Source: Akkermansiaceae bacterium (GTDB lineage: Bacteria; Verrucomicrobiota; Verrucomicrobiia; Verrucomicrobiales; Akkermansiaceae). Taken from it: a stretch of 44,096 nucleotides of DNA. The position numbers and the translations under genes are program-made. Under the pieces are notes generated by a model. That model was given only the letters and a program-made list of their open reading frames with translations, was not told where the DNA came from and made no database searches. Positions 11,083 to 43,310 of the stretch are shown one piece after another. The stretch covers positions 1-44,096 of the forward strand of contig CAIKDP010000058.1 in the NCBI GenBank assembly GCA_903826205.1, written 5' to 3'. The first letter of the stretch is position 1, and each line of letters starts with the position of its first letter.

Positions 11083-11095
11083 CCCGACCACCGCC

Positions 11096-19077: not shown

Positions 19078-19163
19078 ATCTTTTGGCATAGTCAACCACG
19101 AAACAAATCTGGCTATTCATGCGTAGTGACCCATTGTCCCCTGGCCCTGAACCATCGACGAAC

Positions 19164-24096: not shown

Positions 24097-24349
24097 AAAA
24101 TAGGCCGGCACACCGGGGTTTACTGCTTGCCATACCGGCTGCATCGGGCCTAATTCCCACGACTTCAGCAACCCATCCAACGACTGGCCAGGCCACGCCG
24201 CGGCGAATCCCTTGATTCGCGCCCCTGTCTGTGCCTTTGCCCATGACCCAACAGCCCCACCCACCTCCTCTCTTCGGTTCAATGTTTATTAATTCATGTT
24301 TTCCCTCTCTTCGGATTCTCCCGCCTACGCCTTGCCGGCTCATCTCCCT
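24097..24349. other. leader region of the first PATR gene
   Basis: A noncoding stretch. An AT-rich patch, TTTATTAATTCATG (about 24285-24299), stands out and could hold a -10 box. ATG 24296 is in frame but is probably not the start, since the paralogue begins at the residue matching 24350. Confidence 0.35.
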
Positions 24350-27300
24350 ATGAAACCCACCTCCCCCCAGCGCCTCGTCCGCACCGGATCACGCCATCTC
24401 GCCCTCGCCCTTGTTTCACTGCTCGCCGCAGCCTCCGCGCAGGCCGCCATCCTCTATTGGGATGGCACCAGTCCGCTCGAAACCCCCGGTTTTGGCACGG
24501 CCAATGGGATATGGGGCAGCAACGCGTATTGGACAACCTCCACCAACGGCTCAAGCACACCCGGCACCACCGCCACGACCACCGCCGACACCCTGAACTT
24601 CGGCAACGCGAGCACCGGTCTCTTGGCCGGCACCATCACGGTTGGGACCGTCAGCGCTGGCGACCTCACCTTTGCAGCAGCCTCCGGCACCATTGTTCTC
24701 TCCGGTGGCACGATCACCCTGGCTGCCGCCGAAACCCTCACCGTCGACAACGCGACCGACACCATTGGTTCGATTCTGGCGGGCGCGGCCACCAGCCTCA
24801 CCAAACTCGGCTCCGGCACGCTGGTCCTCTCCGGGGCTAACACCTACACCGGCACCACCACTGTCAGCGCCGGCATTCTCAATATCCAGCATGCCACGGC
24901 CCTTGGCACGGCGGCGTCGGGCACCTCGGTGGCCACCGGCGCGGCCCTCCAAATCCAGAACGGAATCACCGTGGGAAATGAAGCCCTCACCCTTGGCGGC
25001 GACGGCATCGGTTCGACCGGCGCGCTACGCAACATCAGCGGCAACAACTTCTGGCAAGGAACCGTGACGCTGGCCGGGGCCACCACCCTCCAGTCGGATG
25101 CCGGCACCTTGACGTTTGACACGGCGGCAATATCCATCACCGGATCCAACAATCTCACCATTCAAGGTGCGGGCGGCGTGACCATTTCGGGCGGCACCAC
25201 GGGCATCGATATCGGCACCGGCAGCCTGACCAAGAACAATGCCGGCACCTTGACCTTGACCGGTCCGAGCAGTTACAGCGGAGCCACCCTCATCAACGGC
25301 GGCGTGGTCAACATCCGCAATGCCTACTCATTGGGCACAGCTGCCGGTGGTGTGACGGTGGCCGCTGGCGCGGCGTTGCAGATACAGGGCGGCATCACGG
25401 TCGGTGGCGAGGCCCTGTCCCTCAGCGGCACTGGCATCAGCAACGATGGCGCGCTGCGCAACATCAGCGGTGCCAATACTTGGCAAGGCGCCGTGACCTT
25501 GGCCGGAGCCACACGCATCAACTCGGACGCCGGAAGTTTGACCTTTGACACAGCGGCCAACAGCATCACGGGAACCCAGAATCTAACATTGGGAGGCGCG
25601 GCCGGCGGCAGTGTCAACGGCACCATCACCACCGGCACCGGCACCTTGACCAAGGATGGCGCGGGCACGTGGACGCTCGCCGGGGCCAACACATACTCCG
25701 GCCTCACCACCATCACCAACGGCACCTTGCTGTTCGGCAAGCGCGCAGCCCTTTACACCGACGCCGCGGTCAACTGGACGACAAGCAACCTCAGCGTGGC
25801 CTCCGCCTCCATTCTGGGCATTGGTCTTGGCGACCACGGGTCCGGGTATTTTGATGCCACCGACCTCGCCACACTGTTAGATGGCGCGCACCTCGGCGCC
25901 AGCACGGCAAGCACGGGGCTGAAGACTGGTTCCGTCCTCGGTCTGGACACGACCAACGCCACCTCAGGAACTTTCACCTATAACACCGCCATTGCCAACA
26001 CCGGCAATGCCTTGAACCTGGCCAAACTGGGTGCGGGCATCCTCACTCTCTCCGCAAGCAACACCTATACCGGCACCACCAACCTCAGCGTCGGCACCCT
26101 CAAAGCCGGAATCCTCGGCACGGCCACCGGCGGCGCGTTTGGCACCAACTCCGCCGTCACCATGGCGACCGGCACCACCCTGGACATCACCGACTTCAAC
26201 ACCTGGATCGGTTCGCTCACCGGCAACGGCAGCATCACACTCGGTGCGGCCATTCTCACCGTGGGCGGCAATAATACCAGCCCCGCTGCCTATGCGGGCG
26301 CCATCAACGGCGGTGGCGGCCTAACCAAAATCGGCTCCGGCACCCTCACCCTCTCCGGCACCAATGGTTACACCGGGGCCACCACCCTCAATGAAGGCAC
26401 CCTCAGCGTCAGCGCAACCGGCAACTTGGGCGGCACCAACTCGTTGGTCTTCGACGGCGGCACCTTGCAGGTCACCGGGACCTCGCTGACAACCTTTGGC
26501 ACGCACACCCCCACTTTCAATCCCGGCAAAACGGCGGTCTTCGATATCAGCACCTCCAACAACATATTCACCGCCAGCCAGATCCTCAATCAAGGCAGCG
26601 GTGGTCTAACCAAGTCAGGATCCGGCACGCTCAAACTTTCCGGCTCCAACACCTTCAACGGGCAACTGACCGTGCAAAATGGCACGCTTTCCGTTGCCAC
26701 GATCAACAACGACAGTACCGACGGACCGTTGGGCAACAATGCGCTTGCGGTGATTCTGGGCAATGCCGGATCGCAAAATGGCACCCTCCAATACACTGGC
26801 GGCGGCACTGCGGCCAGCACCAAGAAGTTCACTCTGGCCACCGGCGGCTCCGGCACCTTCCAAGTGGACACCGCCGGCACCATCCTCACCCTCAGCGGGG
26901 CGATCGACGGCAGCGGCAATCTGCTCAAATCCGGAGCCGGTAAGCTGATTTTATCCGGATCCATCAGCTATACAGGCACCACCACCGTCAACGCGGGCAG
27001 CATCGGCCTGGGCGCCTCCGATCTCATGCCTGCCACGACAAACCTGGTGGTCAGGGCCAACCCCGGCACGGTCGTCTTTGATCTGGGCGGCTTTAACCAG
27101 ACCGTCGCCAGCATCACCATGAGCGCGCAATCTGGTGGTGACTCGGCCTCTATCAATACCGGCACCGGGACTCTCACCGTCAACGGCAATATCAGCCTGC
27201 CGACGACCAACAACTTCTGGCCTACCATTACGAACACGATCAGTGGCAACCTGGCCTTGGGCGGCGGTACCCGGAGCATTGACACGGGCGGCAACTCGCC

Positions 27301-30300
27301 GTCCCAAATCACGGCCGTCATCTCCAACGGCGGCATCACCAAGCTGGGCAGCGCGTGGCTATTGCTCACCGGTGCCAACACCTACAACCTCGGCACCACA
27401 CTCAGTGCGGGTTATGTGTCAATGGGCATTGATCCTGTGGGGTCGGTCGGCTCAATCACCAACAGCGCGATCGGCACCGGCACCCTGACTTTCAATGGCG
27501 GCGGCATTTCTTCTAACAGCATCACGGCACGCACGATTCTCAATCCTATCACCTTCAGTGGCCCCGGTCTTTTCGGCGACGGCACCAACCTCGGGCAACT
27601 CACCTTCAGCGCCAACGCGGACCTCGGCGGCTCCGCCAGAACACTAACCGTAGCTGCCAACACCACGGCGCAACTCGACGGGATCATCAGCAACGGCGGG
27701 ATCGCCAAGAGTGGCACTGGCACCCTGCTGCTTGCCAACGCGACCAACAACTACGCCGGCGGCACCACAGTGAATACGGGCACCCTGAAATTGGGAGTCG
27801 CCAATGCGCTGCAGGGAGCGGTGACCCTGTTTGCCAATCCGGGCACCGTCACGCTCGATCTCAATGGGCTTAACACCACCATCAGCACGCTAAGCATCGG
27901 CGCCCAATCCGGAAGCGATGGCCCGGTGACGGTCAACACCGGCGCGGGGATTCTAACACTTGGCGGCGACTTTACGTTCACCGGGACCACCAACAACCCA
28001 GTAGGCGGCATTATCAACGGCAATCTTTCCCTCGGCAGCGCCACCCGGCAGTTCCTGATGAATGCCCACAGCACCAATGCGGCCAACGTCAATGGTGACA
28101 TCTACATCCCGGCAATCATCTCGGGCAACTCCGGCGTCGGTCTCACCGTCGGAGGCTCGTCAGCCACGGGCGTGCTCACTCTATCCGGTGCCAATACCTA
28201 CACCGGCAACACCACCCTGGCCAACGCCATCCTGCGGGTCGGCGGCGCGGAGAATGCCGGCGTGGCCGGACCGCTCGGCCATCCGGCCACACCCGCAGGC
28301 AGCATCATTTTCAACGGCGGCATTTTGCAATATTCGTCAGGCAACCAATTCGACTATTCGAGCCGCTTCAGCACCGCCGCCAGCCAGCAATACAAGGCCG
28401 ACACCAACGGCCAGAGCGTGATTTGGGCCAGCGGGCTGACCAGTTCCGCGGGCACTCTAACCAAGTCAGGCAACGGCACGCTGGAACTCTCCGGCACCAA
28501 CACCTATAGCGGCACGACCACCGTGAGCGCCGGCACGCTGGTGCTATCCGGCAACAACAGCGGCTCGATCAGTCTCGTGACCATCGCGCTTGGCGGCATC
28601 GGCCAGTTCAACTCCCTCAATTCCATTCCGGGCAGCGGAAGATCCGTGACGGACACCGGCACGCTGGTGTTTGGACCCGCCTTCGGGGTTGCCAATATCC
28701 CGGCCGGTTTGGCGCGTATCACCACCGGCTCAAGCGGCGTGATCGCCATCGACAACTACCTCGGCACCAATTTCGATTTGAATGCCGCCGGGCTAACAGC
28801 CGCATCGCTCGGATCGCTGGCCAGCGCCACCTATACCGGCACGCTCACACCCCAAGGCGGGGTCTATCGCCTGGGTGGCGGCGGCGGCACCATCACCCTG
28901 GGCAACGTCAACGCGTTGACCGGTGCCAACGCCGCGGTTATCAACAACAACGTGATCCTTGCCGCTCTCAACAACCATACCGGCACCACCACCATCAATG
29001 CCAGTGCCACCCTGACCCTGGGCACCGGGGTGACCGGCCAAAACGGGTCGGTCGGTGGCAATATCTCTAACAGCGGAACCCTGGTCATCAATGACTTTGA
29101 CGCCCAAACCTACGGCGGCGTCATCAGCGGCACCGGCCCGCTGACCAAAACCGCTGCCGGCGCGTTCACTTTCAGTAGCCCGCAGACCTACACCGGCACC
29201 ACCACCGTCAACGCCGGGACCTTGCTCCTCGCCGGTGGCAACCACACCCTGGCGGTCAACAAGGCCCTGGTGGTCAACACCGGCGGCACGCTCGACCTCG
29301 GATCCAACAACCAATACGTCGGCCAGTTCAGCGGCAGCGGCGGCGGCGTCACCGGCTCAGGATCCCTAACGACAAGCCTGACCGGTGCCGGCAGCTATGC
29401 CGGCTCGCTTGGTGGATCGGTCAATCTCGTCAAGGTGGGTACCCAGACGTTGACCTTGACCTCTGACAGCACCACCAGCGGCACGCTCAAGGTGCTCGGC
29501 GGCGGCTTGGCCCTCAAGGACAGCGGGGTGTTGTCCAACGCGACGGGTGCGCTCACGATCAACGGCGCAACCGTGACCATCGACAACACCGGCACGGCCG
29601 ACAACAGCAACCGCGTCAACGACAGCAAGAGTATTACCCTCAATGGTGGCACCCTCATCTTCAGCGGCCGAGCCTCAACCAACTCAGCGGAGACCCTTGG
29701 AGCGGTGACGGCCAATTCGGGGAGCTCGATCATGTCTGCCCTCATTGGCACCTCGGGAAGCGCCCAGTTGACCATGACCAGCCTGACCCGCACTCCCGGC
29801 GCTTCGATCTTTTTCAACCAAGGCATGACGAGTTTCGGGTCGGCTGGCAACTCCTCCCGCATCCTTGCCAACACCACCAACACCCAGCTCACCGGCAATA
29901 TGGCCCCGATCAACGGCGTCGTTCCGGGGGCTTTTTTCATGGTGAACACCGACAATTATTTCTTCGTGGACTACTCGCCGACCCTAGGCTTCAAGCAGTT
30001 GGCTAGCACCACTAACAACTTCATCACTGCCGGTGCCAGCGACAACGTTCGAGACGTGAGCGGCGTGGTTGGTGCCGACAAGACTATCAATTCCTTCGCA
30101 CAAGGAACCCTCACCTTTACCAACGGAACCTCGACCGGCGGCACGGACCTTCTGACGCTTGGCAGCGGCATGGCCATTCTAGCAACCAACACCTGGGGCA
30201 CCACGAGCGCACGCGGCAGGATCACTTCGGGAACGAATGAACTCTTCCTTTTCAAGAGAGACGCCAATGTGACGCCGGATCCGGTCGTCAATTCCGTGAT

Positions 30301-32761
30301 CGTGGACAAGAACGGAAGCACGGCGCTTAACCCTACGGACAAAGTCAGCCTCATCGTTCATGCCCAGCGGCAAGACCGAGGCTACTATTTGCATCTGACC
30401 GCCCCCAACCTCTATAGCGGAGGAACATTTGTTGATGTTGGTCCTTTGAACGTCGCCGCAGCAGGCCTCTCGCTCGACGCCACCAGTGCCGGCATCGTGA
30501 CGATTCCGGCCGGCGGTCTGACCCTCAATAACAATACATTGGTGGAAATGACCGGTTTCCAAGGCCAGATCGATCCGACCAACGCAGTGACCATCAACGG
30601 CGGCGGACAACTGCACCTGATGGGCACCAACACCCTGGCTGACATCACCTTCAACAGCAATGGCGGCACTGTCGTGCCGGCAGTCATCCCGTATAACACC
30701 ATTACCGCTGGGTCTAATAATAACCTGGCCAGTTACGGTACCAAGACCGGGACGCTGGTCATCACGGGCAACATCACCTCCACCCCGACCAACGTGGCGG
30801 TCACTCCGCTGATTGATTCCGGCACCCTCGACCTCAACGGCACGAGCACGCACGACATCAGGGTCAGTGCCCAGCCCGATGGCAACTTCGTCAACAACCT
30901 GACCCCGCTCAACGGATTGGCCATCAGCTCGGTGATCCAAAACGGCGGCTTTACCAAGAAGGGCGACGGCGTCCTCAACCTAACAGGATCAAACACCTTC
31001 ACCGGGGATCTGGCCGTGCAGGAAGGCGTGGTGAATGTCGCCACCTTCAATGAAACCAGCGCGTCGGGACCGCTCGGCAAGAGCACCAACGCAGTGGCCT
31101 TGGGCGGCAGCGGCGGCAAGACCGGTGCCATCGAATACAGCGGCGGCAGCTCCACCAGCACCCGCCTCTTCACCCTGGCTACCGGCGGCACGGGTGGCTT
31201 CCAAGTCGATGCGGCCGCGACCACTCTCACCCTCAGCGGACAGATCGACGGCAGTGGTGGTCTGGCCAAGACCGGCGCAGGCACACTTACTCTATCCAGC
31301 GCCAAGACATACAGCGGCAACACCACGGTCAAGGCCGGCACCCTCAAGCTTGACGGTGCCGGCAGCTTTGCCAATAGCCCGAGCATCATCGTCGGCGACA
31401 CAGCGGGCTCTGCAGCCGTGTTGGATGTCAGCACCAAGACCGGCGGCTTCACCGTCGGCAGCACCCAAACCCTGGGTGGCTGCGGCGTGATCAACGGCGC
31501 GGTCAATGTCAGCGGCGTGCTCTCGCCCGGGGCCTCCATCGAAACCCTGGCAAGCGGTGCCCTGACCCTCAATACCGGTTCGACCTTTGCCTATGAAATG
31601 AACTCCAGCGTGGCAGCCACCGTTGGGGCCGATTTGCTAAAAGCCGGCGGCGGCCTCAATCTGAATGGCACGGTCACCCTGAGTCTAACCGACATTGCCG
31701 CGACGCCCATCTCGTTTACCATCGGCACGACCTTCTCGTTGATCAACTACACCGGCGTGTGGAACAGCGGTCTTTTCACCATCGGGGGCGCTGCACGCAT
31801 TGACGAAGCGGAGTTCTTCGCCGGGAACAACACCTGGCAAATCGACTACAACGCGACCAGCGGCGGCAGCAACTTCAGCAGCGAACAGGTGCCCGGTCAT
31901 TTCGTCAACCTCACCGCCACGGGCGGTCTCGTCGATGCGCCCAAGATGGTGGTGCTGGATCCAAATCAGGTCAACATTCCCAACTCAGGAGCCCAAGCGT
32001 TCGGCACAGTGGCGGTCGGATCAAGCCTCAGCCTGACCTTGACCATCAAGAACACCGGCAAAGCCGATCTCACTCTGGACTCGATCTATCTGGACGGCAG
32101 CAACTCGTCCGAATTCACCGTGACCACCGCCCCGACCTCGCCGGTAGCCTGGGCCACAGGCGGCAATACCACCACCTTCACGGTGAAGTTCTCACCCACC
32201 GGCGCCGGGGCCCGCCAAGCCATCCTGCACATTCCCAACAACGACACCACCACCTTCGACATCAACCTCAGCGGCACCAGCACCAACCCCTATCAGGATT
32301 GGATCGACGGCTACACCGACCTCATGTTGGCCGACCGCGTCCCGGGTGCCGACCCGGACAAGGACGGATCCAACAACCTTGCCGAGTTCGCCTTCAATGG
32401 CGTGCCTAACAACCCTGCCAAAAAGGGCCTGTTCTTCACCCAGCTCAAGGACAACGGCGATGGCGACACCCTCAAGGAACTCACCTTCACCTGCGCGGTG
32501 CGCCGCTCGACCAGCGTCGCCTTCCCCGCCAGCGGCGTCCAGACCGCCACCATCGACGGGGTGACCTACACCATCGAGGCCAACCCCGTCCTGACCGGCA
32601 CCTGGTCGAGCGCCGTTTCCTACGCCGGCAAGTCCAACACCCCGCCTGCCGGCAGCAACCTGCCCGACCTAACCGGCACGGCCTGGGAATACTGCATCTT
32701 CTCCGCCTTCAACGGCCTCGGCGGCAAAGGCTTCATCCGCGCCAAAGTCGCGCTACCATAA
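24350..32761 (+). CDS. giant secreted PATR (autotransporter-associated beta-strand) repeat protein 1
   Basis: A 2803-aa protein. The signal peptide (LALALVSLLAAASAQA) follows MKPTSPQRLVRTGS, which is shared with the next gene and fixes the start at 24350. The body has about fifteen PATR repeats of the form LTKxGxGTLxLSGxNTYTGxTTVxxGTL, which build a long beta-solenoid. Near residue 2530-2645 is an immunoglobulin-like choice-of-anchor-D/Hydin-type domain (PNSGAQAFGTVAVGSS, NNDTTTFDINLSGT). A DPDKDGSNNLAEFAFNG calcium-binding linker follows, then a terminal beta module ending in GFIRAKVALP. There is no autotransporter beta-barrel and no PEP-CTERM tail, so the route to the surface is unclear. 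The role is probably adhesion or cell-surface structure. No strong Shine-Dalgarno sequence. Confidence 0.85.
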   Translation: MKPTSPQRLVRTGSRHLALALVSLLAAASAQAAILYWDGTSPLETPGFGTANGIWGSNAYWTTSTNGSSTPGTTATTTADTLNFGNASTGLLAGTITVGTVSAGDLTFAAASGTIVLSGGTITLAAAETLTVDNATDTIGSILAGAATSLTKLGSGTLVLSGANTYTGTTTVSAGILNIQHATALGTAASGTSVATGAALQIQNGITVGNEALTLGGDGIGSTGALRNISGNNFWQGTVTLAGATTLQSDAGTLTFDTAAISITGSNNLTIQGAGGVTISGGTTGIDIGTGSLTKNNAGTLTLTGPSSYSGATLINGGVVNIRNAYSLGTAAGGVTVAAGAALQIQGGITVGGEALSLSGTGISNDGALRNISGANTWQGAVTLAGATRINSDAGSLTFDTAANSITGTQNLTLGGAAGGSVNGTITTGTGTLTKDGAGTWTLAGANTYSGLTTITNGTLLFGKRAALYTDAAVNWTTSNLSVASASILGIGLGDHGSGYFDATDLATLLDGAHLGASTASTGLKTGSVLGLDTTNATSGTFTYNTAIANTGNALNLAKLGAGILTLSASNTYTGTTNLSVGTLKAGILGTATGGAFGTNSAVTMATGTTLDITDFNTWIGSLTGNGSITLGAAILTVGGNNTSPAAYAGAINGGGGLTKIGSGTLTLSGTNGYTGATTLNEGTLSVSATGNLGGTNSLVFDGGTLQVTGTSLTTFGTHTPTFNPGKTAVFDISTSNNIFTASQILNQGSGGLTKSGSGTLKLSGSNTFNGQLTVQNGTLSVATINNDSTDGPLGNNALAVILGNAGSQNGTLQYTGGGTAASTKKFTLATGGSGTFQVDTAGTILTLSGAIDGSGNLLKSGAGKLILSGSISYTGTTTVNAGSIGLGASDLMPATTNLVVRANPGTVVFDLGGFNQTVASITMSAQSGGDSASINTGTGTLTVNGNISLPTTNNFWPTITNTISGNLALGGGTRSIDTGGNSPSQITAVISNGGITKLGSAWLLLTGANTYNLGTTLSAGYVSMGIDPVGSVGSITNSAIGTGTLTFNGGGISSNSITARTILNPITFSGPGLFGDGTNLGQLTFSANADLGGSARTLTVAANTTAQLDGIISNGGIAKSGTGTLLLANATNNYAGGTTVNTGTLKLGVANALQGAVTLFANPGTVTLDLNGLNTTISTLSIGAQSGSDGPVTVNTGAGILTLGGDFTFTGTTNNPVGGIINGNLSLGSATRQFLMNAHSTNAANVNGDIYIPAIISGNSGVGLTVGGSSATGVLTLSGANTYTGNTTLANAILRVGGAENAGVAGPLGHPATPAGSIIFNGGILQYSSGNQFDYSSRFSTAASQQYKADTNGQSVIWASGLTSSAGTLTKSGNGTLELSGTNTYSGTTTVSAGTLVLSGNNSGSISLVTIALGGIGQFNSLNSIPGSGRSVTDTGTLVFGPAFGVANIPAGLARITTGSSGVIAIDNYLGTNFDLNAAGLTAASLGSLASATYTGTLTPQGGVYRLGGGGGTITLGNVNALTGANAAVINNNVILAALNNHTGTTTINASATLTLGTGVTGQNGSVGGNISNSGTLVINDFDAQTYGGVISGTGPLTKTAAGAFTFSSPQTYTGTTTVNAGTLLLAGGNHTLAVNKALVVNTGGTLDLGSNNQYVGQFSGSGGGVTGSGSLTTSLTGAGSYAGSLGGSVNLVKVGTQTLTLTSDSTTSGTLKVLGGGLALKDSGVLSNATGALTINGATVTIDNTGTADNSNRVNDSKSITLNGGTLIFSGRASTNSAETLGAVTANSGSSIMSALIGTSGSAQLTMTSLTRTPGASIFFNQGMTSFGSAGNSSRILANTTNTQLTGNMAPINGVVPGAFFMVNTDNYFFVDYSPTLGFKQLASTTNNFITAGASDNVRDVSGVVGADKTINSFAQGTLTFTNGTSTGGTDLLTLGSGMAILATNTWGTTSARGRITSGTNELFLFKRDANVTPDPVVNSVIVDKNGSTALNPTDKVSLIVHAQRQDRGYYLHLTAPNLYSGGTFVDVGPLNVAAAGLSLDATSAGIVTIPAGGLTLNNNTLVEMTGFQGQIDPTNAVTINGGGQLHLMGTNTLADITFNSNGGTVVPAVIPYNTITAGSNNNLASYGTKTGTLVITGNITSTPTNVAVTPLIDSGTLDLNGTSTHDIRVSAQPDGNFVNNLTPLNGLAISSVIQNGGFTKKGDGVLNLTGSNTFTGDLAVQEGVVNVATFNETSASGPLGKSTNAVALGGSGGKTGAIEYSGGSSTSTRLFTLATGGTGGFQVDAAATTLTLSGQIDGSGGLAKTGAGTLTLSSAKTYSGNTTVKAGTLKLDGAGSFANSPSIIVGDTAGSAAVLDVSTKTGGFTVGSTQTLGGCGVINGAVNVSGVLSPGASIETLASGALTLNTGSTFAYEMNSSVAATVGADLLKAGGGLNLNGTVTLSLTDIAATPISFTIGTTFSLINYTGVWNSGLFTIGGAARIDEAEFFAGNNTWQIDYNATSGGSNFSSEQVPGHFVNLTATGGLVDAPKMVVLDPNQVNIPNSGAQAFGTVAVGSSLSLTLTIKNTGKADLTLDSIYLDGSNSSEFTVTTAPTSPVAWATGGNTTTFTVKFSPTGAGARQAILHIPNNDTTTFDINLSGTSTNPYQDWIDGYTDLMLADRVPGADPDKDGSNNLAEFAFNGVPNNPAKKGLFFTQLKDNGDGDTLKELTFTCAVRRSTSVAFPASGVQTATIDGVTYTIEANPVLTGTWSSAVSYAGKSNTPPAGSNLPDLTGTAWEYCIFSAFNGLGGKGFIRAKVALP
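30910..32761 (+). repeat. 1.85-kb direct repeat, copy 1 (3' part of PATR gene 1)
   Basis: Matches 41460-43310 at an offset of about 10,550 bp. Identity is very high in 30910-31660 and in the last 350 bp, lower in the Hydin-like part between them. Confidence 0.85.
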
Positions 32762-32785
32762 AGCCAATGGAGAAGAGCATGACAA

Positions 32786-32799
32786 TCCAACATCCAACA
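32786..32799 (+). repeat. two TCCAACA heptads in the gap between the PATR genes
   Basis: TCCAACA occurs twice in succession, then TTCACC. The unit differs by one base from the dispersed TCTAACA. The whole gap (32762-32816) has no other visible signal. Confidence 0.6.
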
Positions 32800-32816
32800 T
32801 TCACCCCACTCCCACG

Positions 32817-35800
32817 ATGAAACCCACCTCCCCCCACCGCCTTGTCCGAACCGGTTCACACCGCCTCGCCCTCGCCCTTGTCTCACTGCTCGCCACAGCC
32901 TCCGCTCCGGCAGCTAACATTTATTGGGATGGCACCACCACCGACTGGACCACGATCGGCTCCTGGTCCACCGCGGTGGGTGCCGCCACACCTGATCCCG
33001 CGCTGGTTCCCGGTTCCGGCGATGTTGCGAATTTCTCTATCAACACTATCACCAACACCGCGCAAACCGTCAACCTCAACGCGGCCCAGTCGGTACTGGG
33101 CATGGTTTTCCTCGCCTCCAACACGGCACCCACTAATTTGTTAGGCGGCGGGACCAACCAAGCTCTCACGTTGGGCACCAGCGGCATCACGGTGAATGCC
33201 GCGGCGGGTGCGGTGACCATCGGCTCGGCCACAGACGGCCAAAATGTGGCGATTACCCTCGGCGGCGCACAGACATGGACGAACAATTCGGCCAACCTCT
33301 TCACCGTGGTCAATGCCGTGACTAATGGCACCAACACCCTCACCGTCGCAGGCACCGGCAATACTGTCATCAACGGCGCCATCGGCGCAGGCGCCGGTGG
33401 TCTCACCAAGTCCGGCACCGGCATTCTGACGCTGGCCGGCGCTAACACATTTTCAGGTGCCATTACGGTCGGCGGCGGCACATTGCAACTCGGCAGCAAC
33501 AGCGCCCTTAGTGGCAGCAACAGCGCCGCCGTAAACATCACCGGACAATCCACGTTCGACCTCAACGGCTATGACGCGACGGTCGGCCGGATCTTCTTTG
33601 CCTCAAGCAGTAGCGGGCAAACACAGACCCTGACCACCGGCGTGGGAACACTCACCCTCACCGGTGCCGCCGGCGGTAATGGCAATATCAGTCAGGATGT
33701 TAATTCAGCCGGGCCCAAGGTCATCAACGGCAATATCAATCTGGGGGGGGGCGCGCGCACCATCAATAGCCAGATTGGTACCTGGACCGTCAACGCCAGC
33801 TTCTCCAACGGCACTCTCAACCAGACCGGCGGCACCATCCTCTATACCAGCAGCGGCACGAATGCCACCAAGCTGACCGGCGGCACCTATCAAATGGGCA
33901 ACTCCAGCGCGCTTGGCACCGGCACACTCACCTTTGCCGGCGGCGGCATTTCCTCAAGCGACGCGACTGCCCGCACCATCAGCAACACGATCGTGTTTGG
34001 CAGTGGTTCCCTCGGCAACGCCACCAACAACGGAAAAATAACCTTCACCGGACCTATGTCATCCGGGGCAGGCAGCCTGACGCTCAACAGTGACGCACAG
34101 TTTGATGGAATCATCTCCGGCAGCGCCGGCTTTTATGTCGGTGGTTCGGCCACTCTAACCATCACCAACACCGCGAACAGTTTCACCGGTGGCTTCGGGA
34201 CCTCCGGCACCACCAACCAAACCGCCACCCTGCGCTTCGACCCCGGCAGCAAGCTGGTCGGCACGGCCGGGACCTTTCCCACGCTGAACCTCAATACGGG
34301 CACGGTGGACCTCAATGGCACCGACCAGACCGTGCATGGCATCTACTTCGGCGTGGCGAATGCCGGGACAACTGGCACGTTGATGACCGGCATGGGAACC
34401 TTGACCCTCTCCGGTTCCACCATCACCAACGGGCTGGACATCTCTCCGGACAGTGGCGCGGCCCACAACAAAATGATCAGCGGCAACCTGAATCTCGGCG
34501 GTGCCACCCGCTTGATTAGCGGCGGCGGCGGCTTGCTCACCCTTTCGGCGAATGTTTCCAATGGCAACGCCGACTTCAAGGGCGGCACCAACCTGCTCTC
34601 CGGCACCAACACCTATACCAATACCACGCTCACCGGCGGCACCGTCCGGGTGGGCGCGGTTAGCACCGGTTCGGTCGGCGCGATCACCAACGGCCCGCTT
34701 GGCACCGGCACCCTGACCTTCTCCGGTGGCGCGATTTCCTCGAAAGACACGACGCCGTACCCACTCCTCAATGCGGTCGCCTTCAATGGCAGCGCCAGCG
34801 CCACCATCGGCGATGCCACCAACAACGGAACGCTGACGTTTGGCGGCCCTGTGAACCTCGGCATCACCGCCCACACCCTAACCATCAACAGCCCCACGCA
34901 GATCGATGGGACCATCGCCGCCACCAGCGGCAGTTATACCAAGGCCGGTCCGGGGATCCTTGTTCTAACAAACGGGAGCAACGCCCAGACCGGCGGCACG
35001 ACGGTCACTGCCGGCACGCTGGCCCTCAGCGGTGCCGGAGTGTTCGGTGCCAGCAGCGGCAATCTCACCCTGAGTGGCGGCACCGTCGATTTGGGCGGCA
35101 CCACCGACCGGGTCGTCGGCGCGCTCAGCATCACGGCGGCCGCCGGCAGTGGCGACACGCTCAGGAACGGCGCCCTCAAAGGCAGCTCGTATGCCGCTTC
35201 CAACACCTCTGGCACCGCCATCGTCTCGGCCGCATTGTTAGCCAACGGAGCGGTCGGCTTCTCCTTGAACGGAGCGGGCGGCACGGTTGTTTTCTCCGGC
35301 CCCAACACCTATACCGGAACGACCCTTCTTAGCGCCGGCACCCTCAATCTTGGAATTGCTGAAACCCTTGGCACGTCAGGTCCAATGGGCAATACGGCAC
35401 TCGCCAGCACGATCAGCTTCGGGGGCGGCACGCTCCAATACTCGGCCGCCAACCAATACGATTACTCCAGCCGCTTCACGGCCAGCGGCAACAACGCCTA
35501 TAAGATCGATACCAACGGCCAGTCCGTATCCTTTGCCTCCGCCTTGCAGGCCGCCGGGACCAGCGGTCTGACTAAATCCGGGGCGGGCACGCTGACTCTC
35601 ACCGTGCCCAACACCTACACCGGTGCCACCACGATCACTGCAGGCACGTTGAGCGTGACCACCATCGGCGACGGCGGCGTGGCCGGCAACCTCGGCCAGG
35701 CCACCAGCGCCAACACCAATTGGGTCATCGGCTCCGGGACGCTGCAATACACCGGCGCCACCGCCAGCAGCAACCGCGGCTTCACGCTAAGTTCCGGCAC

Positions 35801-38800
35801 CACCGCCACCTTCGACATCACCAGCGGCACCACCAACCTGACAATCTCCGGCGCATCCGCCATATCGACCGGGGGCCTAACAAAGACGGGCGCTGGCACG
35901 CTGACACTTTCCGGACAGAACGTCTACACCGGTGCGACGACCGTCAATGCAGGCATCCTCAAGGCCGGGGTTGCCGGCACGGCGGGCGGCGGCGCGTTTG
36001 GTAACAACTCGGCCGTCACCCTGCTCGACGCGAGCGCCGTGGGCCTGGACATCACCGGTTTCAACACCTGGATCGGCTCTCTGGCAGGTGGCGGCGCAAG
36101 CGGCGGCAACGTCACCCTCGGAACATCCATGCTCACCGTTGGTGGCAACAACACCACCACCACCTACACGGGCAAGCTCAGCGGCATTGGCGGCAGCCTT
36201 GCCAAGACCGGCTCCGGCATGCTCACCCTCAGCGCCAGTAACGATTTCACCGGCGACCTCACCCTGAGTGCGGGCACCCTGAGCGGCGCAACGGACGCCA
36301 ACCTCGGCGCAGCCAACCGCTTGATTTTCGACGGTGGCACTTTGCAGGTCACCGGCACGGCTCTAACCACCTATGCCGCCGGCTTTATCGGCACCCATGC
36401 CGTCGTTTTGAATCCGGGAAAAACCGTCGGCCTCGATATCAACAGCGCAGCCAACACCTTCACCGTCAGCCAAGTCCTCAATCAGGGTAGCGGCGGTCTA
36501 ACAAAACTCGGCGCCGGCACGCTCACCCTGGGCGCAAGCAACACCTACACCGGAGCCACGGCATTGAGTGCCGGCAAAATCACAGTCGGGGTTCTTGGCA
36601 CGGCCAGCGATGGAGCGCTTGGCACCAACTCGGCTCTCACCATGGCCGGCACGACCCTCGACCTCAACAACTTCAATACCTGGGTCGGTTCGCTCACCGG
36701 CAGTGGTGCCATCACCCTGGGCAGCGCCACCCTCACCGTGGGCGGCGACAACAGCAGTCCCGCCACCTTCTCGGGCTCCATCAATGGCAGCGGCGGCCTC
36801 ACCAAGATCGGCTCCGGTACGCTCACGCTTTCCGGCACCAACGGCTACACCGGCGCCACCACCCTGAGCGCGGGCACCCTGAGCGTCAGCACTCTCGCCA
36901 ACTTGGGCAGTGCCACAAACCCGCTGGTTTTCGACGGCGGCAGCCTGCAGGTCGCAGGAGCAGCCCTGACCAACTTCGGCTCTCATCCGGTCACCTTCAA
37001 CGACAGCAAATCGGTGATCTTCGACATCGCCGCATCTAACACATTCACCGTCAGCCAACCTCTCAATCAAGGCAGCGGGGGTCTGACAAAATTGGGCCTT
37101 GGCACGCTTGTGCTCACCGTCACCAACCCATTCAGCGGCCAGTTGACCGTGCAAAACGGCACACTCTCGGTTGGCAATATCGACAGCAGTGGCCCCGATC
37201 CGGCACTCGGCAACGGTGCGTTGCCGGTCATCCTCGGCGGCAGCGGCACCACTGGCACCCTGCAATACACCGGCGGCACTGCCTCCAGCAACAAGCGCTT
37301 CACGCTGGCCACCGGTGGCACCGGCACCTTCCAAGTGGACACGGCCGCCACTGTGCTAAGCCTCGGCAATGCCATCGACGGCGGCGGCAACCTGCTCAAA
37401 ACCGGCGCCGGCACCCTGGTGCTTTTCAACTACAGCACCTATGGCGGCAACACCACCCTCGGTGTCAGCGGCAGTGGCGGTTATGGTGGCGTGCTGAAGC
37501 TGGGTGTGGCAGGCGCGTTGCCGGCAACCACCAATCTGTTCATTCATGCGGATTGCAACAGCGCCGGGCAAACCACGCTTAATCTCAATGACTTGAACCA
37601 AACGGTCAACAATATCACCCTTTACGCCAATGACGGGAATGGCAGTGCCGCATCCCCGACGTCCATCGCCGCAATCACCACCGGCAACGGTATCCTCACC
37701 GTCAACGGCAGCATCACCCTCGATTCCTTCAATGGCGGCGGTGGTCTCATCAGCGGCAGACTCGACCTCGGCGGCGGCGTGCGCTCCGTGATCGGCTTGA
37801 ACCAGTCCAGATGGCTGACCCTTTCGGCCCTTGTTGCCAATGGCGGACTCAACGTGACCAGCGGCAATGTCTATCTATCTAACACGAACAGCACTTTCAG
37901 CGGCGGCCTGACTGTCAGTGGCACTGGCAAGGTCTATGTGGGAGGTGCCAGTTCGGGCTCCCCGGGCTCGCCCGCCAGCGGCCCGCTGGGCACGGGCAGC
38001 ATCACCTTCAGCGGCGGCGGCATGAGTTCGGACACCGCCACCGCCCGCACCATCCTCAATCCGATATCCTTCACCGCCGACGCCACCTTCTGCGTCCCGG
38101 GCTACGGCGGCAACGGCAATTTGACCTTCAGCGCGACCGGCAGCACGAGTCTTGGCGGAGCAACACGCACGCTGTCCGTCAATCCGGGGTCTGTGGTGCA
38201 ACTCGACGGGGCCCTCGGCAATGGCGGCTTCAGCAGCAGCGGCGGCGGCACCCTCGTTCTAACCAACGGTTCCAACGCCTTCACCAGTGCGCTGACCGTG
38301 GGTAACGGCACCCTCAAGGCCGGTGCGCCCAATGTGCTCTCGGGCCAAGCTCTAACAGTAGGAACCGGCACGGCCGGCGATGTTGAAACCCTCGACATCC
38401 AAACCTACAACCAAACCATCGGCACCCTGAGCATCGGCACGCAGGGAACGGGCAGCGGATCGACCCAGGTGGCCTCGATCATCGGCTCGGGGGGCTTCCT
38501 GACCCTCGGCGGCACGCTTACCTCAACCAGTGGCAACCAGAACAAAGGCTCTCTCATCAGCGCCAATCTCGACCTCGGAACGGCGAATCTAACCAGCAGC
38601 GCCCGCATCATCACCGGCAGCAACAGTGGCGGCTCAAGCCGCATTTTCGACCTCGCCATCACTGGCAGCATCACCGGCAGCGGCGTGGGCCTGAACAAGC
38701 AGGGGGCGAGCGTGTTAGGGCTTTCCGGCCAGAATACCTATTCCGGCACCACCACCCTCACCCTTGGAACCATCAACCTCGGCAGCGCCGAAACCGTCGG

Positions 38801-41800
38801 TGTCTCAGGACCCCTCGGCAGCCCCGCAGGCAGCATCGTTTTCAATGGCGGCATCCTGCAATACTCGACCTCCAACCAATATGACTATTCGAGCCGCGTC
38901 AGCAATGCGGCGGGCCAGAAATTCAACATCGACACCAACGGCCAGAACGTGGTCTGGGCCACCGGTTTGGTGAGCACCGGCGGCACTCTGACAAAGACCG
39001 GAACCGGCATTCTAGAGCTCGCCGGCAACAACACTTATGGAGGCGCGACCTTGCTGAGCACCGGCACATTGGTGCTTTCCGGCAACAACAGCGGCTCGGT
39101 CAGCGCAGTGACAATATCCGCCAGCACCGTTGGCCAGTTCAACGCGCTGAACTCCATCCCAGGCACCGGCCGCTCGGTGACCAACTCTGGCACGCTCGTC
39201 TTCGGACCAAGCTTCGGGACCGGCAATATCAGCGCCGGCTTGTCACGCATCACCACCGGCTCGGCTGGCCTCATCGCCATCGACAACAACCCGAGCGCTA
39301 ATTTCGATCTGAACGCGGCTGGTCTGACATCCGCGTCGCTCGGGTCGCTCGCCAACGTGACCTACACCGGCACCCTGACCCCCCAGGGCGGGGTCTACCG
39401 CCTCGGTGGTGGCAGCGGCGTCCTCACCATGGGCAGCGTCAACAGCCTGACAGGGACCAACACCACAACAATCAACGGCAATGTCGTTCTCGCGGCACTC
39501 AACAACAACACCGGTGTTACCACGATCAATGCCGGCACCACCCTGACCTTGGGCGGCGGCACGGCCGGCCTCAACGGCTCGGTCGGTGGCAACATCACCA
39601 ACAACGGCTCCCTGATCCTCAATAACTTCGATGCCCAGGCGTTTGGCGGCGTAGTCAGCGGCACTGGACCACTTACGAAAAATGGCGCCGGCCCGTTCAC
39701 CTTCACCGCATTACAAACCTATACCGGCACAACCACGATCAACGCAGGCATTTTGGCCATCGGCATCAACCACGCATTGCCGGTCAACAGGACTCTGGCA
39801 ATAGCCGGCGGCGCGCTTGACCTCGGATCTAACAACCAATACATCGGCCAGTTCTCCGGCACCGGCGGCAGCGTCACCGGCAGTGGGTTGCTCACTGTCA
39901 ACCCAACCGCCGCGGCCACCTTTGCCGGATCAATCCAAGGGGCTGCCAATCTCGCCAAGATCGGGATTCAGACCCTGACCCTAACAGGCGCCAGCACCAC
40001 CACCGGAACCGTCAGCGTGATGGGTGGCGGACTGACGCTCAGCGGCGGCGGCACGCTGGCCGGCGCGACGGGCTCGATTGCCGTCAATGACTCTATCATG
40101 ACACTCGACAACGCGGGTGCTGCCAACGACAACGACCGCGTCAGCGATGGCAAGGTGGTCTCGCTGGAGGGTGGCACCCTTGTCTATAATGGCGCCAACA
40201 GCAACGCCTCGAGCGAGACCCTCGGCACTGTGACAGCCATCGCCGGCCTTTCAAGCATCTCGGCCACTCCGGGAACGGGTACTGCCAGCGCGGTGTTGAC
40301 TCTCACCAGCCTGACGCGCAGCGCTGGGGCCTTGCTTGCCCTCAGCGGCTCGAATCTCGGGACATCCGCCAATCCTTACGGGCGCATTCAGGTGGCTGGC
40401 GGTAGCGCGTCACTTGCGGGGGGGCTTACACCGGTTGGTGGTGTGGTCCCGGGGGTTTATGGCAGCGCTTTCACGAGTTTCGTCGGTTATACCGACGCCA
40501 CGGGCTTCGCAGCTCTGGGCACAGCGGGTTACGCCTGGCAAAATCCATACAGCAGTGGTGACCTGAGCGCGGCCCCGGCCAACGCCAACGTCACAGGCCT
40601 GACCTCAGGCAACGTCAAAGCGGGCGGGCAGACCATCAACAGCCTCAATTGCCTCAGCAGCAGCAGCAGCATCACATTCAATTCTATCACGCCGGGCACA
40701 CTGACCATTGCCAGCGGCATGCTGGCCGGCGGCGGGGATGGTGCCGGCATTGGTGCCAACGTGGGAACCACCACCGTGCGAGGTCAACTGACATCCGGCC
40801 TCAGCACGGGCGAGTTGTTCTATATGAAAGGCGACGGCGGCAGCGGCGGTGGCAACGCCGGTGATTCTAACATTCACTCGGTCATCGTGGACAACGGCAA
40901 CCCGCTGAGCGGCGGGACACGCGTCAAGCTCGTCGTGATATCAGGCACCGCCCCGGACCAACAGGGCATGAATCCGAGCATCTCGGCCCCCAACAGCTAT
41001 ACGGGCGGAACCTCCGTCACCGCCTCCGGCAGCGGCAGATACAGTGGAACTTACGGAGCCTATTTCAACCTCAACGCCACAACCTCGGGCATCGTGACGG
41101 TGCCGGCCGCCGCCGACCCGAACAACGGCTTGGTGATCAACAACAACGGAAATGTCAGAGAGTTGAACTTTGGAGGTCAAATTGCCCCAAGCAATATCGT
41201 GACCCTCAATGGCGGTGCCTGTCTGACCCTGACCGGCAGCAATACGCTGGCAGGGCTGGTCTTCAATAGCAACGGAGGTAAAAACACCCCATTGGTCACG
41301 CCCACCGGCACCCTGACAATCACCGGCAACATCTCCTCCACGCCAAGCAACATGGCCGTGACACCGACAATCGGCGCCGGCACCCTCGACCTGAACGCAA
41401 CCACGCATAACATCACGGTCTCCGCTTTGCCTGAAGGCAACTACGCCAGCGGCCCGCTCAACGGCTTGGCCATCAGCTCGGTGATCCAAAACGGCGGCTT
41501 TACCAAGAAGGGCGACGGCGTGCTCAACCTAACAGGAACCAACACCTTCAGCGGGGACTTGACCGTGCAACAAGGCGTGGTGAATGTCGCCACCATTAAT
41601 GAAACCAGCGCGTCCGGTCCGTTGGGCAAGAGCACCAATGCCGTGGTTCTGGGCGGCAGCGGCGGCAAGACCGGTGCCATCGAATACAGCGGCGGCAGCT
41701 CCACCAGCACCCGCCTCTTCACCTTGGCCACCGGCGGCACGGGTGGCTTCCAAGTCGATGCGGCCGCGACCACCCTCACCCTCAGCGGACAGATCGATGG

Positions 41801-43310
41801 CAGCGGCGGCCTGGTCAAGACCGGGGCGGGCACACTCACTCTATCCAGCGCCAAGACCTATGGCGGCAACACCACGGTCAATGCCGGAACCCTCAAACTT
41901 GATGGCGCCGGCAGTTTCGCGAATAGCCCGAACATCATCGTCGGCGACACGGCGGGCTCCGCGGCTGTGTTGGATGTCAGCAACAAAACCGGCGGCTTCA
42001 CCGTCGGCGGCACCCAAACCCTGGGTGGCTGCGGTGTGATCAACGGCGCGGTCAATGTCAGCGGTGTTCTCGCACCGGGTGCCTCCATCGAAACCCTGGC
42101 CAGCGGTGCCCTGACCCTCAACAACCTCGCCACGTTTGCCTATGAAGTGAACTCCAGCGTGGCGGCCACCGTTGGGGCCGACCTGCTAAAAGCCGGAGGC
42201 GCGCTGAGTCTGAATGGCACCGTCACCCTGAGCCTAACTGACATCGCCGCATTGCCCATCACGTTCGACACCGGTACGACCTTCTCATTGATCAACTACA
42301 CCGGCGCGTGGAACACGGGTCGCTTCAGCTACGGCAGCACCATCCTCGACGACGAGGCGCAGTTTATCGCCATGAACAACACCTGGAAAATCGACTACAA
42401 CGCAACCAGCGGCGGGAGTAACTTCAGCAGCGAACAGGTGGCCGGTAACTTCGTCAACCTCACCGCCATGGGCGGTCTCGTCGGCTCGCCCAAGATGGTG
42501 GTGCTGGATCCAAATCAGGCCAACATTCCCAACACCGGGTTGCAACCCTTCGGCACGGTGGCGATCGGTTCGAGCAACAGTCTGACCCTAACCATCAAGA
42601 ACACCGGCAACGCCGATCTCACCCTCGGCCCGATCACCCTGGACGGCGCCAACCCGGCCGAATTCACGGTAACGACCGCTCCGTCCGCTCCAGTGGGCTG
42701 GGCTGCAGACAGCAACACCACCACCTTCACGGTGAAGTTCACGCCAGGCACTGCCGGAGACCGCTATGCCATCCTGCATATTCCTAACAACGACAACAAC
42801 ACCTTCAATATCAGCCTCAGCGGGTCCGGCATCAACCCCTATCAGAATTGGATCGATGGCTACACCGACATCCCGCTGGCCGACCGCGATCCGCAAGACG
42901 ATCCCGACCACGACGGAGTCACCAACCTTGCCGAGTTCGCCTTCAATGGTGTGCCCAACGATCCCGCGAAGAAGGGCCGCTTCTTCACCCAGCTCAAGGA
43001 CAACGGTGATGGTGACACCCTCAAGGAACTCACCTTCACCTGCGCGGTGCGCCGCTCGACCAGCGTCGCCTTCCCCGCCAGCGGCGTGCAGACCGCCACC
43101 ATCGACGGGGTGACCTACACCATCGAAGCCAACCCCGTGCTGACCGGCACCTGGTCCAGCGCCGTTTCCTACGCCGGCAAGTCCAACACCCCGCCAGCCG
43201 GCAGCAACCTGCCCGACCTAACCGGCACGGCCTGGGAATACTGCATCTTCTCCGCCTTCAACGGTCTCGGCGGCAAAGGCTTCATCCGCGCCAAAGTCAC
43301 GCTGCCGTAG
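32817..43310 (+). CDS. giant secreted PATR repeat protein 2
   Basis: A 3497-aa paralogue of the previous gene, 55 bases downstream. N-terminus MKPTSPHRLVRTGSHRLALA and signal peptide ending ASAPAA are nearly the same. About twenty PATR repeats are visible (for example LTKIGSGTLTLSGTNGYTGA), so it gained some units or its neighbour lost them. The Hydin-like domain lies near residues 3220-3340, then DPDHDGVTNLAEFAFNG and a terminal module ending in GFIRAKVTLP. The N- and C-terminal parts are close to protein 1 while the middle is rearranged, as expected for repeat shuffling and gene conversion. No barrel domain, no catalytic motif. The two genes probably share a transcript; no terminator lies between them. 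Confidence 0.85.
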   Translation: MKPTSPHRLVRTGSHRLALALVSLLATASAPAANIYWDGTTTDWTTIGSWSTAVGAATPDPALVPGSGDVANFSINTITNTAQTVNLNAAQSVLGMVFLASNTAPTNLLGGGTNQALTLGTSGITVNAAAGAVTIGSATDGQNVAITLGGAQTWTNNSANLFTVVNAVTNGTNTLTVAGTGNTVINGAIGAGAGGLTKSGTGILTLAGANTFSGAITVGGGTLQLGSNSALSGSNSAAVNITGQSTFDLNGYDATVGRIFFASSSSGQTQTLTTGVGTLTLTGAAGGNGNISQDVNSAGPKVINGNINLGGGARTINSQIGTWTVNASFSNGTLNQTGGTILYTSSGTNATKLTGGTYQMGNSSALGTGTLTFAGGGISSSDATARTISNTIVFGSGSLGNATNNGKITFTGPMSSGAGSLTLNSDAQFDGIISGSAGFYVGGSATLTITNTANSFTGGFGTSGTTNQTATLRFDPGSKLVGTAGTFPTLNLNTGTVDLNGTDQTVHGIYFGVANAGTTGTLMTGMGTLTLSGSTITNGLDISPDSGAAHNKMISGNLNLGGATRLISGGGGLLTLSANVSNGNADFKGGTNLLSGTNTYTNTTLTGGTVRVGAVSTGSVGAITNGPLGTGTLTFSGGAISSKDTTPYPLLNAVAFNGSASATIGDATNNGTLTFGGPVNLGITAHTLTINSPTQIDGTIAATSGSYTKAGPGILVLTNGSNAQTGGTTVTAGTLALSGAGVFGASSGNLTLSGGTVDLGGTTDRVVGALSITAAAGSGDTLRNGALKGSSYAASNTSGTAIVSAALLANGAVGFSLNGAGGTVVFSGPNTYTGTTLLSAGTLNLGIAETLGTSGPMGNTALASTISFGGGTLQYSAANQYDYSSRFTASGNNAYKIDTNGQSVSFASALQAAGTSGLTKSGAGTLTLTVPNTYTGATTITAGTLSVTTIGDGGVAGNLGQATSANTNWVIGSGTLQYTGATASSNRGFTLSSGTTATFDITSGTTNLTISGASAISTGGLTKTGAGTLTLSGQNVYTGATTVNAGILKAGVAGTAGGGAFGNNSAVTLLDASAVGLDITGFNTWIGSLAGGGASGGNVTLGTSMLTVGGNNTTTTYTGKLSGIGGSLAKTGSGMLTLSASNDFTGDLTLSAGTLSGATDANLGAANRLIFDGGTLQVTGTALTTYAAGFIGTHAVVLNPGKTVGLDINSAANTFTVSQVLNQGSGGLTKLGAGTLTLGASNTYTGATALSAGKITVGVLGTASDGALGTNSALTMAGTTLDLNNFNTWVGSLTGSGAITLGSATLTVGGDNSSPATFSGSINGSGGLTKIGSGTLTLSGTNGYTGATTLSAGTLSVSTLANLGSATNPLVFDGGSLQVAGAALTNFGSHPVTFNDSKSVIFDIAASNTFTVSQPLNQGSGGLTKLGLGTLVLTVTNPFSGQLTVQNGTLSVGNIDSSGPDPALGNGALPVILGGSGTTGTLQYTGGTASSNKRFTLATGGTGTFQVDTAATVLSLGNAIDGGGNLLKTGAGTLVLFNYSTYGGNTTLGVSGSGGYGGVLKLGVAGALPATTNLFIHADCNSAGQTTLNLNDLNQTVNNITLYANDGNGSAASPTSIAAITTGNGILTVNGSITLDSFNGGGGLISGRLDLGGGVRSVIGLNQSRWLTLSALVANGGLNVTSGNVYLSNTNSTFSGGLTVSGTGKVYVGGASSGSPGSPASGPLGTGSITFSGGGMSSDTATARTILNPISFTADATFCVPGYGGNGNLTFSATGSTSLGGATRTLSVNPGSVVQLDGALGNGGFSSSGGGTLVLTNGSNAFTSALTVGNGTLKAGAPNVLSGQALTVGTGTAGDVETLDIQTYNQTIGTLSIGTQGTGSGSTQVASIIGSGGFLTLGGTLTSTSGNQNKGSLISANLDLGTANLTSSARIITGSNSGGSSRIFDLAITGSITGSGVGLNKQGASVLGLSGQNTYSGTTTLTLGTINLGSAETVGVSGPLGSPAGSIVFNGGILQYSTSNQYDYSSRVSNAAGQKFNIDTNGQNVVWATGLVSTGGTLTKTGTGILELAGNNTYGGATLLSTGTLVLSGNNSGSVSAVTISASTVGQFNALNSIPGTGRSVTNSGTLVFGPSFGTGNISAGLSRITTGSAGLIAIDNNPSANFDLNAAGLTSASLGSLANVTYTGTLTPQGGVYRLGGGSGVLTMGSVNSLTGTNTTTINGNVVLAALNNNTGVTTINAGTTLTLGGGTAGLNGSVGGNITNNGSLILNNFDAQAFGGVVSGTGPLTKNGAGPFTFTALQTYTGTTTINAGILAIGINHALPVNRTLAIAGGALDLGSNNQYIGQFSGTGGSVTGSGLLTVNPTAAATFAGSIQGAANLAKIGIQTLTLTGASTTTGTVSVMGGGLTLSGGGTLAGATGSIAVNDSIMTLDNAGAANDNDRVSDGKVVSLEGGTLVYNGANSNASSETLGTVTAIAGLSSISATPGTGTASAVLTLTSLTRSAGALLALSGSNLGTSANPYGRIQVAGGSASLAGGLTPVGGVVPGVYGSAFTSFVGYTDATGFAALGTAGYAWQNPYSSGDLSAAPANANVTGLTSGNVKAGGQTINSLNCLSSSSSITFNSITPGTLTIASGMLAGGGDGAGIGANVGTTTVRGQLTSGLSTGELFYMKGDGGSGGGNAGDSNIHSVIVDNGNPLSGGTRVKLVVISGTAPDQQGMNPSISAPNSYTGGTSVTASGSGRYSGTYGAYFNLNATTSGIVTVPAAADPNNGLVINNNGNVRELNFGGQIAPSNIVTLNGGACLTLTGSNTLAGLVFNSNGGKNTPLVTPTGTLTITGNISSTPSNMAVTPTIGAGTLDLNATTHNITVSALPEGNYASGPLNGLAISSVIQNGGFTKKGDGVLNLTGTNTFSGDLTVQQGVVNVATINETSASGPLGKSTNAVVLGGSGGKTGAIEYSGGSSTSTRLFTLATGGTGGFQVDAAATTLTLSGQIDGSGGLVKTGAGTLTLSSAKTYGGNTTVNAGTLKLDGAGSFANSPNIIVGDTAGSAAVLDVSNKTGGFTVGGTQTLGGCGVINGAVNVSGVLAPGASIETLASGALTLNNLATFAYEVNSSVAATVGADLLKAGGALSLNGTVTLSLTDIAALPITFDTGTTFSLINYTGAWNTGRFSYGSTILDDEAQFIAMNNTWKIDYNATSGGSNFSSEQVAGNFVNLTAMGGLVGSPKMVVLDPNQANIPNTGLQPFGTVAIGSSNSLTLTIKNTGNADLTLGPITLDGANPAEFTVTTAPSAPVGWAADSNTTTFTVKFTPGTAGDRYAILHIPNNDNNTFNISLSGSGINPYQNWIDGYTDIPLADRDPQDDPDHDGVTNLAEFAFNGVPNDPAKKGRFFTQLKDNGDGDTLKELTFTCAVRRSTSVAFPASGVQTATIDGVTYTIEANPVLTGTWSSAVSYAGKSNTPPAGSNLPDLTGTAWEYCIFSAFNGLGGKGFIRAKVTLP
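41460..43310 (+). repeat. 1.85-kb direct repeat, copy 2 (3' part of PATR gene 2)
   Basis: See the copy at 30910-32761. The final 350 bp differ at only about a dozen sites, mostly third codon positions. Confidence 0.85.

Follow-up and report, generated by a model that had tools for sequence, protein, structure and literature searches.

The window analyzed here, a stretch of 44,096 nucleotides that constitutes an entire contig (CAIKDP010000058.1, here C58) of the 5.57-Mb draft genome of an Akkermansiaceae bacterium (Verrucomicrobiota), encodes a subtilase and two giant PATR proteins that end in one homologous domain of ∼140 residues, hereafter the module. The module is a genuine domain that occurs across the phylum and has apparently not been described before: in library scans, neither a Pfam nor an NCBIfam model covered its beta domain, and a search of the openly accessible literature returned no description of it. 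The sections cited here from a paper on the Akkermansia outer membrane treat PEP-CTERM and autotransporter proteins, and not the module ending (PMC4960237). Because the module occupies a terminal place like that of surface-sorting tails, and is covered by no library model, it is probably an undescribed signal that places proteins on or outside the cell. We estimate the probability that it serves as a C-terminal sorting or anchoring domain of the Verrucomicrobiota at somewhat above one half (about 0.56), a reading that is well supported by context, given that the module is terminal, has mixed cargo, exchanges with PEP-CTERM tails, and neighbors choice-of-anchor domains.

A conserved domain at the C-termini of unrelated proteins

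The initial annotation proposed that four proteins of the window (the subtilase, an HYR protein, and PATR proteins 1 and 2) share a last domain. All four are present, and their tails read as expected. A profile (A1) constructed from 18 tails of the source genome and run on the whole genome in six frames returned 106 matches with E ≤ 1 (some 90 with E below 1e-3), and these include the ends of both PATR proteins and of the subtilase (Table 1). Three of the four ends therefore belong to one family, whereas the HYR end is absent from these matches. A profile restricted to the beta part gives the HYR end 9.6 bits, exactly at its C-terminus (E = 7.6e-5 in a one-sequence search, which is not significant genome-wide), and within the genome this end finds a relative only in a short segment of the module protein C200 (E = 0.045); for these reasons it is left doubtful. 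The DxDxDG loop that had been noticed in three of the four ends was recovered in the two PATR ends and the subtilase end (Table 1), and the HYR end is without it. The adjacent giant PATR paralogs are 92% identical over their last ∼160 residues, which suggests that their 3′ ends were recently duplicated or underwent gene conversion, and because of this identity the window holds only two or three independent cases.

The module begins with a short helix bearing a near-invariant Trp, followed by a loop of the EF-hand/TSP3-like pattern (D-x-D-x-D-G-x-x-N-x-x-E), and then by a beta domain (Y-x-(V/I)-E-x-S-x-x-L-x-x-W) whose final strand, F-x-R-(V/L/A)-x-V, stands directly before the stop. From 65 members of the source genome, AlphaFold2 predicts with confidence a seven-stranded immunoglobulin (Ig)-like sandwich (pLDDT 89.5, pTM 0.82), with short helices flanking the loop and the seventh strand at residues 158–164 of 166. 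The prediction for eight Akkermansia sequences (pLDDT 81, pTM 0.67) arranges the elements similarly and places the last strand at residues 146–152 of 153. The Akkermansia loops have lost most of their acidic ligands (PDACPAGDGISN and the like) and the end, RRFLRLKVTR, is almost invariant, such that the final 10 columns of these paralogs are 99% identical vs. 68% elsewhere. The terminal residues are the best conserved portion of the beta domain (mean information 1.05 vs. 0.42 bits). Because the Akkermansia loops have decayed while RRFLRLKVTR has been kept, the constant part of the module is the terminal strand rather than calcium binding.

In the source genome, 77 dereplicated carriers were found at E < 1e-4; 66 of these end 0–6 residues past the match, and four end 7–20 residues past it. 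The other seven comprise five cases in which a local alignment probably breaks off early although the module continues to the stop codon, one Amuc_1099 protein (matched by its loop only), and one true internal copy. Carriers from relatives (n = 97) are distributed in the same manner, with 90 ending 0–6 residues past the match, 5 at 7–20, and 2 others. Nearly all matches, where positions were examined, thus lie at the very C-terminus, and the expectation that a profile would return many such matches on unrelated exported proteins throughout the phylum is borne out by these 77 proteins and by the 95 of 145 genomes described below.

The cargo is mixed. Partner regions (67 in total) match 80 Pfam families at E < 1e-5, with PATR occurring in 23 and the remaining families scattered, including LamG, Ig types, subtilase, cyclophilin, CAP, RCC1, F5/8C, and more. 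Carriers in Akkermansia include a GH18 protein with LamG and BACON domains, a sulfatase with PA14 and BACON domains, and a Chlam_PMP-repeat protein. Signal-peptide-like starts, counted by a crude rule, occur in 73 of 105 module open reading frames (ORFs) vs. 94 of 206 control ORFs (p = 7e-5), both sets containing frame errors. The other secreted-type enzymes of the window (the rhamnosidase pair, the SASA esterase, and a 3-keto-disaccharide hydrolase) are without the module, and it is therefore not a general feature of exported proteins.

Exchange of tails and comparison with known systems

The source genome has about a dozen PEP-CTERM tails, at loci separate from those of the module tails, and three autotransporter barrels; its PATR-type repeats precede three kinds of tail, namely the module, PEP-CTERM, and the barrel. 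A PATR protein with a PEP-CTERM tail (C35) aligns to five module proteins (C301, C72, C31, C311, and the relative L177), and each of these alignments stops at residue 498–503 of C35, where IPEPGSLL begins. On the partner side, the alignments end only a few residues from where the module begins (for example, alignment end/module start of 2054/2052, 6168/6164, and 1341/1339). In one case, residues 25–501 align with residues 1576–2054 (40% identity, E = 1.6e-53), and the module runs from residue 2052. The barrel proteins have repeat similarity to module proteins that C35 also matches. The module would accordingly be the occupant of a slot that is taken by PEP-CTERM or an autotransporter barrel on sister proteins.

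Choice-of-anchor D (NF012200) owes its NCBI name to its location ahead of different sorting tails. This domain is found in 13 proteins of the source genome, most of which carry it ahead of the module: ten end in the module and one (C411) in a divergent module, while C425 ends in PEP-CTERM (with the match ∼490 residues before the protein end) and C102 is cut by a contig end. In most cases the domain lies immediately next to the module, which is also its arrangement in PATR proteins 1 and 2, and the NF012200 model does not cover the beta domain. Exchange with PEP-CTERM and adjacency to choice-of-anchor D are further context that speaks for the sorting or anchoring role suggested by the initial annotation, although the function itself we infer.

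The C-terminal domain of the type IX secretion system (T9SS) is a small terminal beta-sandwich carried by many unrelated Sec-exported proteins, with a conserved last strand. The module resembles the type A domain (TIGR04183) in being a small beta-sandwich at the very C-terminus of unrelated cargo, also with a conserved last strand, but it differs in the calcium-type loop ahead of it and in the absence of any sequence or profile relation. None of the 65 members matches the T9SS C-terminal domain models at E < 0.1, and hhalign against six real T9SS domains (taken from plasmids and recognized, as a control, by TIGR04183) gives a probability of 0.1 over 11 columns; membership in T9SS type A was rejected. 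The PATR module is without a match in the plasmid collection. Foldseek returned no match under E 0.06, and no T9SS domain is among the fold matches listed, which excludes nothing. A sequence search of solved structures yielded mainly calmodulin EF-hands, at E of at least 0.19.

With PEP-CTERM/exosortase (TIGR02595, PF09721), the module shares the terminal slot on homologous PATR proteins within one genome. The module, however, is a folded domain of about 140 residues rather than a motif, helix, and basic cluster (the PEP-like motif, the membrane helix, and the basic cluster are all absent from module tails), and it is also found without exosortase. Autotransporters of the PATR/type V secretion system (PF12951 with PF03797) have related passenger repeats, whereas the module proteins are without a beta-barrel and the genome has just the three barrels. 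As the initial annotation had stated for the PATR proteins of the window, neither a barrel (PF03797) nor PEP-CTERM was matched on their ends in library scans.

Two further families overlap with the module in the loop. The loop is a TSP3/EF-hand-type repeat, as in TSP3_bac (PF18884), but that model misses the beta domain; the subtilase loop of the window scores 19.3 bits vs. a cut-off of 25, 8 of the 65 members match at E < 0.1, and the PATR loops do not match. The Amuc_1099 family (NF042425) matches 24 of the 65 members weakly, in one detailed case in the loop region. The Amuc_1099 protein itself (G000:C124:9813–10781; L064, L242) belongs to a pilus-system family that shares the DxDxDG loop type and has no beta domain; as a true relative of the module it was rejected, since the loop alone matches.

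Distribution in the phylum and candidate machinery

Using profile A2 at E ≤ 1e-5, the module was found in 95 of 145 Verrucomicrobiota genomes. It is multicopy (at least 27 scored copies in the top genomes), and some genomes contribute one weak match each. The module-bearing genomes include an Akkermansia-like genus of the same family, the assignment to Akkermansia being drawn partly from Amuc_1099 matches and named loci. In named genomes, the closest matches to the profile of subfamily A3 are Akkermansiaceae and unnamed Verrucomicrobia loci.

Exosortase (PF09721) occurs in 103 of the 145 genomes and in 84 of the 95 with the module (Fisher p = 7e-10, with no correction for relatedness or genome size). 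This co-occurrence is what would be expected of an exosortase-dependent variant of PEP-CTERM, but the module tails have none of the three PEP-CTERM elements, and we consider such a variant highly improbable. Eleven module-bearing genomes are without PF09721, and among the Akkermansia-like genomes, the complete, single-contig G113 has three modules (one checked, with an intact tail) and no exosortase. Exosortase is therefore not required, and its candidacy as the reader of the module was rejected. Exosortase is likewise present in every one of the 56 genomes that have five or more copies of the module, an association for which shared ancestry and envelope complexity are the explanations at hand. 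The T9SS core (SprA/Sov) was found in 0 of the 145 genomes, though no control genome responded. Neither exosortase nor SprA thus emerged as the dedicated secretion gene for which the initial annotation had proposed a co-occurrence test.

Secretin is present in 141 of the 145 genomes, and a secretin-based (type II-like) outlet is possible because every module-bearing genome has one, as do almost all others. The module may then be a recognition or stability domain of type II secretion, which helps cargo enter the secretin machine; this overlaps with a sorting or anchoring role as one possible machinery. The four genomes without secretin, all of one family, are also without the module, and among the partner regions there is one similar to SVAGG, a protein of the GlyGly-CTERM family. 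The secretins may, however, belong to pili, and the association carries little weight given that nearly all genomes have secretin and the contrast comes from a single family; we regard this explanation as unlikely.

Several observations weigh against a sorting or anchoring role. No machinery was identified among exosortase, SprA, and secretin across the 145 genomes; any last domain would seem exchangeable with a tail; and the predicted Ig-like fold is a generic one, for which VIA gives Z 5.7 at best and finds mainly Ig and cytokine-receptor domains. Internal copies also occur. In a separate scan with the beta part plus the loop, in which copies were counted without dereplication, 164 were terminal, 4 near-terminal, and 12 internal. 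In eleven of the internal cases, the copy is followed in tandem by another that forms the C-terminus, and the twelfth copy lies in a PATR-module-GH95 arrangement in one frame (L197:1–3579) with a complete GH95 enzyme. In L061 (frame +2, G000:C103), and perhaps in L158, the module precedes a TIGR02597-type domain, and one recombinase-module frame (L176) occurs in a draft genome; the latter seems to be a chimera, since its recombinase sequence ends abruptly and gives way to a PATR-like segment. Internal occurrence, which had been named as evidence against a sorting signal, is thus confined to tandem copies that precede a terminal copy and to two or three true internal cases, and it counts only marginally because such copies are few and mostly paired with a terminal partner. 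The TIGR02597-type domain of L061 comprises about 320 residues, falls below the cut-off of that model, and ends in ...GVFMRMKNALP...; judged from these frames, its combination with the module is possibly a second recurrent architecture.

A generic fold and internal exceptions would both suit an ordinary structural cap: gene fusion would have spread an Ig-like end domain that protects the C-terminus of large secreted proteins and has no role in location. Against a cap stand the swap with PEP-CTERM at a single residue, the adjacent choice-of-anchor D domains, and a last strand conserved more strongly than the remaining sandwich, and we deem it distinctly improbable. The main rival is a surface-attachment domain in place of an export signal: following secretion by another route, the sandwich would bind exopolysaccharide, lipopolysaccharide, or peptidoglycan non-covalently, as the terminal binding modules of extracellular enzymes do. 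An Ig-like fold with a calcium-type loop suits a binding module, tandem copies fit avidity, the cargo consists of enzymes and adhesin-like repeats, and exosortase, a marker of exopolysaccharide-linked sorting, is found in all 56 of the genomes richest in scored copies. Binding modules, however, usually occur anywhere in the chain and alongside sorting tails, whereas the module is almost always last, no PEP-CTERM tail follows it in any module protein examined, and the strand at the carboxy end is the best conserved part of the beta domain. Surface attachment of this kind therefore seems to us rather unlikely.

If the module acts as a sorting or anchoring domain, as we favor, cargo would leave the cytoplasm by Sec export via the N-terminal signal peptide, a step suggested by the crude signal-peptide count. 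The terminal Ig-like sandwich would then fold in the periplasm, with the calcium-type loop stiffening the joint to the cargo; a putative outer-membrane apparatus would read the folded domain, chiefly the last strand F-x-R-(V/L/A)-x-V by the carboxy end; and the cargo would be handed to, or held at, the cell surface. Tentatively, the module may be recognized by an outer-membrane delivery system of the Verrucomicrobiota's own, unrelated to T9SS and exosortase, which would serve as many as about 75 cargo proteins in a genome, glycan-active enzymes of Akkermansia among them.

Features of the window and implications

The subtilase gene is cut at its 5′ end by the contig start, and its N-terminus is therefore not visible; the remaining features are listed in Table 1.

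Table 1. Carrier genes and module features in the window (nucleotide positions within the 44,096-nt stretch).
Feature	Position	Strand	Evidence
Subtilase with PA domain, 3′ part, terminal module	1–921 (frame 1–918)	+	PF02225, PF00082
Subtilase DxDxDG loops, two	532–567 and 607–642	+	Sequence
Subtilase C-terminal module, tail FYRVRIVAP	559–915	+	Profile E 1.2e-10
HYR protein	10982–14047	+	
HYR protein end, doubtful divergent beta domain, no loop, tail FFRVRLP	13793–14044	+	9.6 bits at exact C-terminus; C200 relative
PATR protein 1 (2821 amino acids), terminal module	24296–32761	+	ORF; choice-of-anchor D close to C-terminal end
Choice-of-anchor D of PATR 1, abutting module	32000–32245	+	NF012200, 72.2 bits (cut-off 45)
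C-terminal module of PATR 1 (helix, EF-hand-like loop, beta sandwich)	32285–32758	+	Profile E 2.4e-45
PATR 1 EF-hand/TSP3-like loop DPDKDGSNNLAE	32351–32386	+	Sequence
PATR 1 last strand GFIRAKVALP, then stop	32729–32758	+	Sequence
PATR protein 2 (3497 amino acids), terminal module	32817–43310	+	ORF; PATR and choice-of-anchor D matches
Choice-of-anchor D of PATR 2, abutting module	42549–42794	+	NF012200, 71.9 bits
C-terminal module of PATR 2	42834–43307	+	Profile E 3.6e-51; predicted structure pLDDT 89.5, pTM 0.82
PATR 2 EF-hand/TSP3-like loop DPDHDGVTNLAE	42900–42935	+	Sequence
PATR 2 last strand GFIRAKVTLP, then stop	43278–43307	+	Sequence; residues 158–164 of 166 in model

Between the HYR and PATR genes, positions 14186–18892 encode two fused alpha-L-rhamnosidase units (1568 amino acids) with a terminal F5/8 type C domain and without the module, and positions 19119–21254 encode two SASA (sialate O-acetylesterase) stretches in one protein, with other glycan genes adjoining. 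The protein at 22292–23113 combines a probable four-helix N-terminal half, a Zn_ribbon_Top1 finger, and an SDKSDKSD repeat tail; the zinc ribbon is the sole part that matches Pfam.

A sorting or anchoring role for the module, if true, would provide a sequence signature for the surface or secreted proteome of a phylum about whose secretion little is known, and which includes relatives of Akkermansia muciniphila in the human gut. It would make the search for the matching machinery concrete, with the carriers, the motif, and candidate residues listed, and it would explain how giant PATR proteins that have no barrel reach their place.

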